Translations under genes and position numbers: made by a program
In this document: piece by piece, positions 6,116 to 32,658 of the stretch
Layout of the letters: each line of letters opens with the position of its first letter
Position numbering within the stretch: position 1 is the first letter of the stretch
The notes under the pieces: generated by a model
The model's input: the letters and a program-made list of their open reading frames with translations, nothing else
What the model was told of the DNA's origin: nothing
The model's database searches: none
DNA from: a bacterium
Lineage (GTDB): Bacteria; Patescibacteriota; Minisyncoccia; Phycocordibacterales; Phycocordibacteraceae
Reading direction: 5' to 3'
Length of the DNA: 33,004 nucleotides
Assembly (NCBI GenBank): GCA_023269085.1
Contig: JAHFML010000004.1
Coordinates: 1 to 33,004 of the forward strand

Positions 6116-7369
6116 ATGACCCTCGCCGAAGAGCTGAAAGCACGCGGACTAGTCGAACACGCGTCGGCCGATATCGAGAAGATTCTAAACGCGCCACGCG
6201 CCGTGTATCTCGGCATCGACCCGACCGCCGACTCTATCCAGATCGGGAATCTCGCTGTCGTCCTCCTCATGAAGCGCCTTGGCGACGCGGGGCATAAGCT
6301 CATCTTCCTCATCGGTGGCGGCACTGGGATGATCGGTGACCCGCGAGAGAAGGGCGAACGCGCCTTGCTCGATGCAGCAATCGTCACCAAGAATAAGCGC
6401 GCTATCCAGAAACAGCTCAAGGGTCTGCTCGGCGGCATCTCCTTCAAGCTCGTCGACAATGCTGATTGGCTCATGGATGTGAAGCTCGTCCCCTTCCTCT
6501 GCGAGATCGGCAAGCACTTCACCGTGAACGATCTCGTGAAGCGCGACCTCATCAAGAAGCGTCTCGACACGCCCGACGAAAGCATCTCGTACACCGAATT
6601 CACCTACGCGCTCCTACAAGGCCTCGACTATCTCACTTTGCATAAGAAGTATAGCGTTGATCTGCAGGTCGGCGGCTCCGACCAATGGACAAATATTCTC
6701 TCCGGCGTCGATCTCATCCGCAAGAAGACGAGCGAAGAGGTATTCGCTTTCGCGATGCCGCTCGTCACCGACTCGCTCGGCAAAAAGTTTGGCAAGAGCG
6801 AGGGGAACGCTGTCTGGTTGGATGCGAAGAAGACTTCGCCATTCCGCTTTTATCAATTCTGGATCAACCTGCCCGACACTGACATCGAGAAATATCTGAG
6901 GGTCTACACCTTCTTGCCGCTTGCCGAGATTGATGCGCTTATGGAGCTTCACCGTCGCAACCCGGGTGAGCGACAAGCACAAGAGACGCTCGCGCGCCTC
7001 GTGACCGAGATTGTTCACGGCCCCGCCGCGACCGCGCAGGTCGTCGCCGCGACCGACGCGCTCTTCGGTAGCACCCCCTTCCACGAGCTCTCGCGTGAGG
7101 CACGCGCGGTCGCCCTCGCCGAGGCTCCATCCGTCACCACTTCAAGGTCGAACCTTGAAGTGGGGTATTCACTCGCTGAGGCGCTGGTCGCGGGCGGCCT
7201 CGCGTCAAGCAAGGGCGATGCGAAGCGGCTCATCGAGGGGAAGGGCATCACACTCGGCGGCCTCCCGATACTCGACCCCGATCAGAAGCTGTATCTCGGC
7301 GATCTGCCGGGCGGCCACGCGCTCGTGCGCAAGGGGAGACAGGGCGTGCTCGTTCTCGTTTTGAAATAA
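6116..7369 (+). CDS. tyrS: tyrosyl-tRNA synthetase
   Basis: YLGIDPTADSIQIGNL, GGSDQWTNI, KFGKSEGN and a C-terminal S4-like domain; TATAGT 6 nt before ATG. Confidence 0.96.
   Translation: MTLAEELKARGLVEHASADIEKILNAPRAVYLGIDPTADSIQIGNLAVVLLMKRLGDAGHKLIFLIGGGTGMIGDPREKGERALLDAAIVTKNKRAIQKQLKGLLGGISFKLVDNADWLMDVKLVPFLCEIGKHFTVNDLVKRDLIKKRLDTPDESISYTEFTYALLQGLDYLTLHKKYSVDLQVGGSDQWTNILSGVDLIRKKTSEEVFAFAMPLVTDSLGKKFGKSEGNAVWLDAKKTSPFRFYQFWINLPDTDIEKYLRVYTFLPLAEIDALMELHRRNPGERQAQETLARLVTEIVHGPAATAQVVAATDALFGSTPFHELSREARAVALAEAPSVTTSRSNLEVGYSLAEALVAGGLASSKGDAKRLIEGKGITLGGLPILDPDQKLYLGDLPGGHALVRKGRQGVLVLVLK
7137..7163. repeat. perfect palindrome within tyrS
   Basis: CCACTTCAAGGT-CGA-ACCTTGAAGTGG, 12-bp stem, 3-nt loop. 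Confidence 0.9.
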
Positions 7370-7397: not shown

Positions 7398-7480
7398 GCG
7401 TCGGTGGTAGAGTGGTCAATTACAACAGGCTGTAAACCTGTCGGCTTCGGCCTACGTTGGTTCGAATCCAACCCGGCGCA
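7398..7480 (+). tRNA. tRNA-Tyr (GUA)
   Basis: Acceptor GCGTCGG/CCGGCGC, anticodon stem ACAGG-CTGTAAA-CCTGT (anticodon GTA), long variable arm GGC-TTCG-GCC, T-arm GTTGG-TTCGAAT-CCAAC; no encoded CCA. Confidence 0.95.
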
Positions 7481-7528
7481 CAACTATTGATGAAGGGGTA
7501 AGCAACCGGAAACCTTTCGGCTCTGCAC

Positions 7529-32192: not shown

Positions 32193-32381
32193 ATGACCAC
32201 AGCTGAAAAAGATCGCCAGCTAGATGCTCGCATCGAGCAGAAGATTCTCGAGTTTTTCGGCGACCCTGACGCTGGGCTTGAACTCCGCCCGAGCCACCTC
32301 CGCGAGCTCAAAAAGCGCATGGCGCAGAAGCAGAAGCTCACTCCCCTTTCAGTCGTAGCGAGGAAATATGGTGTCCGTTAA
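32193..32381 (+). CDS. putative antitoxin (62 aa)
   Basis: ATG inside ORF 32142-32381; TATACT 6 nt upstream; overlaps a RelE-like toxin by 14 nt. Confidence 0.75.
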   Translation: MTTAEKDRQLDARIEQKILEFFGDPDAGLELRPSHLRELKKRMAQKQKLTPLSVVARKYGVR

Positions 32382-32619
32382 ACTGAGCGATAGCGCCCTC
32401 CATGATTTTGAACGCATCGACCCGACAATCACAAAGCGCATTATCGCTAAACTGATGTGGCTGGAAGCAAACTTCACGAATGTGACGCTCGAACCACTTC
32501 ACTATAATCTCAAGGGTTTGTACAAGATGCGCGTTGGTGATTACCGAATCGAGTATTCTGTGCAGGACAACATCATCCTGATTCAAGCCATCGGCCACCG
32601 GCGAGATATTTATCGATAA
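32368..32619 (+). CDS. RelE/ParE-superfamily toxin
   Basis: LHDFERIDPTITKRIIAKL...GLYKMRVGDYRIEYSVQDNIILIQAIGHRRDIYR. Confidence 0.9.
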   Translation: MVSVKLSDSALHDFERIDPTITKRIIAKLMWLEANFTNVTLEPLHYNLKGLYKMRVGDYRIEYSVQDNIILIQAIGHRRDIYR

Positions 32620-32633
32620 CGAAATGCCAGACC

Positions 32634-32658
32634 ATGTGCAACACCAAGTGTTGCACAT
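32634..32658. repeat. perfect palindrome downstream of toxin
   Basis: ATGTGCAACAC-CAA-GTGTTGCACAT, 11-bp stem, 3-nt loop, no T-run. Confidence 0.88.

Follow-up and report, generated by a model that had tools for sequence, protein, structure and literature searches.

The tyrosyl-tRNA synthetase gene of a small bacterial genome carries a perfect palindrome in its reading frame, raising the question of what this sequence is and how it came to lie within a conserved gene. The window, which is the whole 33,004-nucleotide stretch that was analyzed, is contig C11 of a genome of 710,721 bp (0.71 Mb) in 14 contigs that is rated 100% complete. We refer to the genome holding the window as G000 and to its relatives as G001, G005 and so on; C denotes a contig and L a fetched stretch. 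The host gene, tyrS, is located on the forward strand at 6116–7369 and encodes a protein of 417 aa. A tRNA-Tyr gene (anticodon GTA) lies at 7398–7481, 28 bp downstream of tyrS, the synthetase and its own tRNA thus being neighbors. The palindrome, CCACTTCAAGGT-CGA-ACCTTGAAGTGG, occupies 27 nt at 7137–7163, also on the forward strand, and forms a perfect 12-bp stem with the loop CGA; it is in frame with tyrS and is translated as TTSRSNLEV, in agreement with the preliminary description of this DNA. On the same strand it can be divided into a core, AAGGT-CGA-ACCTT (7144–7156), a left outer arm, CCACTTC (7137–7143), and a right outer arm, GAAGTGG (7157–7163), the last being the exact complement of the left arm. 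Alignment to solved TyrRS places the peptide TTSRSNLEVG in the linker joining the catalytic and S4-like domains, the position originally proposed for it. By an arithmetic estimate, chance would yield about 0.002 such hairpins (12-bp stem, 3-nt loop) per 33 kb, and the palindrome site ranks in the top 0.8% among windows of tyrS. No further copies were found in the window when up to 3 mismatches were allowed, and shuffled sequences also gave 0.

We performed a census of G000 by means of pattern searches and fetched stretches. The core AAGGT-CGR-ACCTT is present at 53 places, the tyrS site and 52 others, compared to 0 for the reversed-pattern control and to approximately 0.04 copies of a 13-nt core expected by chance (arithmetic estimate). 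A lack of other copies would have spoken against the earlier interpretation; the palindrome is instead far from unique in its genome, and the copy number rules out chance or codon bias as its source. The linker does fit a family pattern, [ST]-[RK]-[SK]-[DN]-[LV], from which codon choice in a natural peptide might have yielded a palindrome, but given the copy number, the clean control, and 12-bp stems not expected by chance, we give this origin practically no credence. When read out, the 53 places resolve into 36 elements: 17 are close inverted pairs, typically of 40 nt of core (range 33–40 nt), and the rest are singles. Hairpins measure 13–27 nt and pairs about 40–60 nt. The pairs have the REPIN arrangement of two inverted REPs with a short spacer, the window copy being a single. 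Two pairs, at C2:17071–17128 and C2:186847–186900, have a common spacer AAATCCGAATCCTC in the same orientation with both loops inverted (CGA..TCG vs TCG..CGA), a pattern that template switching across a hairpin would be expected to produce. Single copies group by their inner arm into TCC-, TGAGT- and CTTC- subfamilies, and the window copy belongs to the CTTC- subfamily, sharing these inner bases of its arm with sisters in tsaD (C5:48139) and enolase (C9:126639). A strict 23-mer search of the relatives missed most copies because the arms differ; these were recovered by a search for the core. Among metagenome-assembled genomes that have a 21-mer in common with the element, those with a name are Parcubacteria, Doudnabacteria, Adlerbacteria, Paceibacterota or Patescibacteria, and the others are simply 'bacterium', so that the hosts are likely Patescibacteria.

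Approximately 20 of the 36 elements in G000 lie in frame within conserved, Pfam-supported genes, rather than being mostly extragenic as is characteristic of REPs. Besides TyrRS, the Pfam-supported hosts include a class II aminoacyl-tRNA synthetase, peptide deformylase, DnaG, DnaE, a glycosyltransferase, TsaD (twice), an S1-domain protein, TopA (twice), Dus, UvrB, UvrA, UvrC, AlaRS, ExoIII, MutY and enolase, a list in which some N-terminal cases may be upstream of the true start. The core contains stop codons in none of the six frames. The same place is occupied in more than one genome for TopA, TsaD, UvrB, Dus, RecG, LeuRS, AlaRS, ExoIII and enolase, often with different arms or dialects (hairpin families). 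Extra hairpins from other RAYT families of G000, GAAGT-NNN-ACTTC and GGACAC-NNN-GTGTCC, were seen in uvrC (L112 12383), uvrB (L112 7517) and tsaD (L109 2678). Replication and repair genes look numerous among the hosts (dnaE, dnaG, topA, uvrA, uvrB, uvrC, ExoIII, MutY), this being a raw count taken without the genome background share. Such a bias would be consistent with the palindromes serving as a selected functional DNA signal, for example a DNA uptake sequence or the site of a chromosome-organizing protein. The same can be said of the exact cores at orthologous sites, where the identity of third positions in the flanks is only about 50%, a figure that is not independent and gives no conservation rate, the sites having been selected for the core in both genomes. 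ExoIII and enolase, in addition, hold the core without an indel.

The genes found beside the hairpins point instead to a transposase. A Pfam search for Y1_Tnp in G000 and its relatives identified a gene at C5:73987–74241 that scores above the Pfam cut-off. Its best NCBIfam match is REP_Tyr_transpos (E 2e-13, 50 bits, under the cut-off of 80), and it contains the motifs HFH and YIHLNP, corresponding to the HUH and Y---NP signatures. Within the locus C5:73323–74459 this RAYT gene is flanked by the hairpin TCCAAGGT[TCG]ACCTTGGA. Over its inner 19 bases the window hairpin agrees with the RAYT-flanking hairpin except at two mutually complementary positions, giving 17 of 19 matches. The assignment leans on these 17 bases, no RAYT with the exact hairpin of the CTTC-arm subfamily having been found in G000. 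The RAYT gene itself (L110, C5:73987–74261) also contains its own hairpin in frame within the coding sequence, as the peptide VVLKLQGRTLDELVG. The two flanks of a locus carried the same 19-nt hairpin at 28 of the 42 Y1 loci in these genomes, compared to 2 of 1000 random control intervals, and at none of three short IS200-type loci. The figure of 28 is probably a lower bound, because identity and distance limits were strict and a few of the Y1 genes are possibly not RAYTs. Across the order, most RAYT-like genes bear their own hairpin on both sides, examples being GTGGCGGT[CCG], ATCGAAGT[CAG], TGTAGAAGT[TCG], GTTGGACAT[CGG] and GTGGATAT[CGG]. At L063 1952–2010 (G006:C22), beside a Y1 gene, a perfect 28-bp stem combines the conserved core TAGGACAC with about 20 bp more of perfect arms.

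Each genome contains several dialects, each adjoining its own RAYT. In G005 the topA hairpin is that of the RAYT on C8, and the tyrS and tsaD hairpins are that of the RAYT on C69; likewise, the tsaD hairpin of G014 matches the RAYT on C29 and the dus hairpin of G036 that on C2. The window also contains, at 32634–32658 (forward strand), a REP-type hairpin from a different family, ATGTGCAACAC-CAA-GTGTTGCACAT, which corresponds to the one located near the G000 RAYT gene at C2:175772. This second hairpin directly follows a RelE/ParE-like toxin gene at about 32369–32620, read by eye from the sequence. Based on these comparisons, the tyrS palindrome is very probably of REP type: a symmetric, non-autonomous hairpin recognized and spread by a Y1/HUH, IS200/IS605-like RAYT of the same genome; the hairpin repeat would then belong to a domesticated transposase. 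A selected DNA signal is improbable by comparison: no more than about 75 copies are present per Mb; a single genome contains several hairpin families that are unrelated, each next to a transposase gene of its own; distribution is patchy inside the genus with most sites empty in most relatives; and a like gene bias has been reported for other REPs (PMC3733652).

The preliminary description had likened the palindrome to Rickettsia palindromic elements (RPEs), and as a comparison of behavior this stands: with 53 copies dispersed in the genome, many in frame in conserved genes and open in all frames, the palindrome works as those elements do. As an assignment to the RPE family it does not, since the cognate partner of the hairpin is a Y1/HUH transposase. 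RPEs differ in length and sequence, and no dedicated transposase has been reported for them, whereas the elements described here are short hairpins and pairs, are RAYT-linked, and occur outside Rickettsia. No homology of the core to RPEs is apparent, the two having been compared by their descriptions. The CGTC tag at one end that characterizes RPE-4/RPE-6-type REPs (PMC3733652) was found in none of the copies read out. We therefore reject RPE membership, and a true RPE or a relative of one is scarcely credible here.

The element had also been proposed to represent an in-frame insertion of nine codons. Comparison of TyrRS among the relatives does not support this: 18 of 21 genomes of the genus share one length of the segment, the other three (G006, G010 and G020) lack only five codons, and the solved TyrRS are shorter at this point by just 3–5 codons, which argues against a recent nine-codon insertion or one peculiar to G000. 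The segment is thus kept in most relatives and the DNA palindrome is not, a pattern that goes partly against the insertion proposal. In five genomes a hairpin lies at the same TyrRS codons with differing arms. Among these, G016 has TTAC-AAGGTCGAACCTT-GTAA, G001 has GTATC-AAGGTCCGACCTT-GATAC, G005 has CGAAGT-CTG-ACTTCG, and G003 has CAAGGC-GAG-GCCTTG, with a compensated core. The hairpin sits in a flexible linker, probably where five codons were gained long ago, and its peptide is presumably tolerated rather than functional.

An old REP insertion, already present in the common ancestor of most genus members, could account for the tyrS copy; such a history is compatible with its identity as a REP. 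In most lineages the peptide S-R-S-[ND]-L would have degenerated into sequences such as SKKDV and GKSEL, while a few kept or re-perfected the hairpin, its arms drifting through template-switch repair of quasi-palindromes. The three genomes lacking the five codons, the shorter solved TyrRS, the RSDL-like peptides at this position in hairpin-free genomes, and the varied arms and compensated core among the five carriers are consistent with this history, as is TopA, for which G000 and L095 share a short-spacer pair whose arms differ yet stay complementary. On the other hand, the TyrRS tree does not group the carriers into a single clade; this tree is poorly resolved and does not discriminate between one old insertion and several arrivals. 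G005 carries the dialect of its own RAYT, which is not obtainable by drift alone, and exact 13-mers should be gone by neutral decay at such divergence. We regard an old insertion as possible, at somewhat less than even chances.

Comparisons at other sites indicate that the REP-type elements do not always behave as simple additions. UvrB has 18 more codons than 3uwx, the net gain is 7 codons in MutY and 5 codons in LeuRS, and TopA, TsaD and LeuRS show in-frame gains against relatives. For ExoIII and enolase, no net length change against relatives or homologues was found. The native UvrB of G014 has FPHKKDGSADFL at the place of FPHRNQGRTLHTNSQGSTLIPDFL in G000. As judged from such alignments, the elements appear to replace native loop codons, not merely add to them.

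The outer arms are complementary within a locus and different between loci: 12 of 17 pairs are perfect over 5–12 bp, compared to a mean of 1.1 and a maximum of 5 for shuffled flanks. The elements at C2:306761 and C5:123332 have nearly the same 40-nt core and unrelated arms (AAAAC and GTAACC), arguing against inheritance of the arms with the element. A fixed-length inverted target duplication is unsupported given that arm length varies from 5 to 12. Insertion into small palindromes already present, as a source of the arms, had been suspected from dnaE (TCCAACTTGGA), where the native sequence cannot be read at the site because the linker is hypervariable; the native UvrB of G014 and L081 shows none. 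The native UvrB sequence agrees with the right arm and disagrees with the left; in MutY the agreement is better for the left arm. From these few cases and the locus-specific arms, we infer that one flank may have been copied, inverted, when the element arrived or later; fold-back synthesis or template switching could produce such a copy.

We propose that the RAYT acts on the hairpin in single-stranded form, cutting and joining it, and that replication forks are the probable place of this reaction; TCCAAGGTCGAACCTTGGA and TTCAAGGTCGAACCTTGAA are candidate single-stranded substrates of the C5:73987 RAYT. The landing element would replace some native codons, and flanking bases would be copied inverted, giving perfect outer arms particular to each locus. 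In-frame copies in tolerant loops would survive because the core is free of stops in all six frames. Plain insertion does not explain tyrS, ExoIII and enolase, as there is no length change relative to relatives or homologues, a replacement-like behavior that counts against the model. More speculatively, and with the chances lying well against it, RAYT systems may repeatedly rewrite particular positions of essential genes. The hairpin would take the place of native codons, in some cases leaving the net length unaltered (tyrS, ExoIII, enolase); an earlier dialect at those codons would be overwritten by the resident one; and the flanks would be copied as inverted arms. If true, this would constitute transposase-driven conversion of coding sequence, not ordinary insertion.

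Among known systems, the REP-type elements described here most resemble REP/REPIN plus RAYT/TnpA-REP systems (REPtrons), sharing short dispersed hairpins, inverted doublets, hairpin-flanked Y1/HUH genes and hairpin–transposase co-variation; REP and TnpA-REP co-evolution has been shown in vitro (PMC8266576). They differ in their perfectly symmetric hairpins with 3-nt loops, many intragenic copies, locus-specific complementary arms and likely Patescibacteria hosts. Classical REPs have a 5' GTAG tag, whereas the AAGGT dialect of the window lacks any GTAG/GTGG tag and is for this reason a variant of a RAYT-mobilized REP, not a GTAG REP; several sister dialects do have GTAG or GTGG inside the stem base, as GTRG..CYAC at both stem ends. 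Intragenic GTAG/CGTC REPs were described by Di Nocera et al. 2013 (PMC3733652), for example in O. terrae and R. conorii, with REPs and REP dimers in frame and many in uvrA, uvrB, dnaE and other replication/repair genes. Their sites usually differ between species, recB excepted; here, in contrast, the same loops of TopA, TsaD, UvrB, Dus, RecG, LeuRS and TyrRS are hit in several species, partly by other dialects. The same study covers both RAYTs with REP flanks and TIRYTs with flanks of other repeats. TIRYT/TIRtron elements (PMC3733652; subclass 2.1 in PMC6006769) are similar in having untagged, sometimes self-complementary repeats that flank a Y1 transposase, but REP-like structures are reported absent from subclass 2.1 in that transposase classification, which also describes 'double foot' REPs (PMC6006769).

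The occurrence of REPs inside repair genes is already known. New are the likely Patescibacteria hosts, hairpins that are symmetric and carry no tag, the switching of hairpins at fixed sites, and palindromic arms specific to each locus; among papers accessible without subscription, we found none tying RAYT/REP systems to Patescibacteria or the Candidate Phyla Radiation. These data extend RAYT/REP systems to probable Patescibacteria, with repeats in frame in the most conserved genes of tiny genomes. About 20 species of one genus, with several hairpin families in each genome and orthologous sites either filled or empty, constitute a natural experiment that addresses open questions about REPs: RAYT target choice, hairpin–transposase co-evolution, and the tolerance of proteins for insertions.
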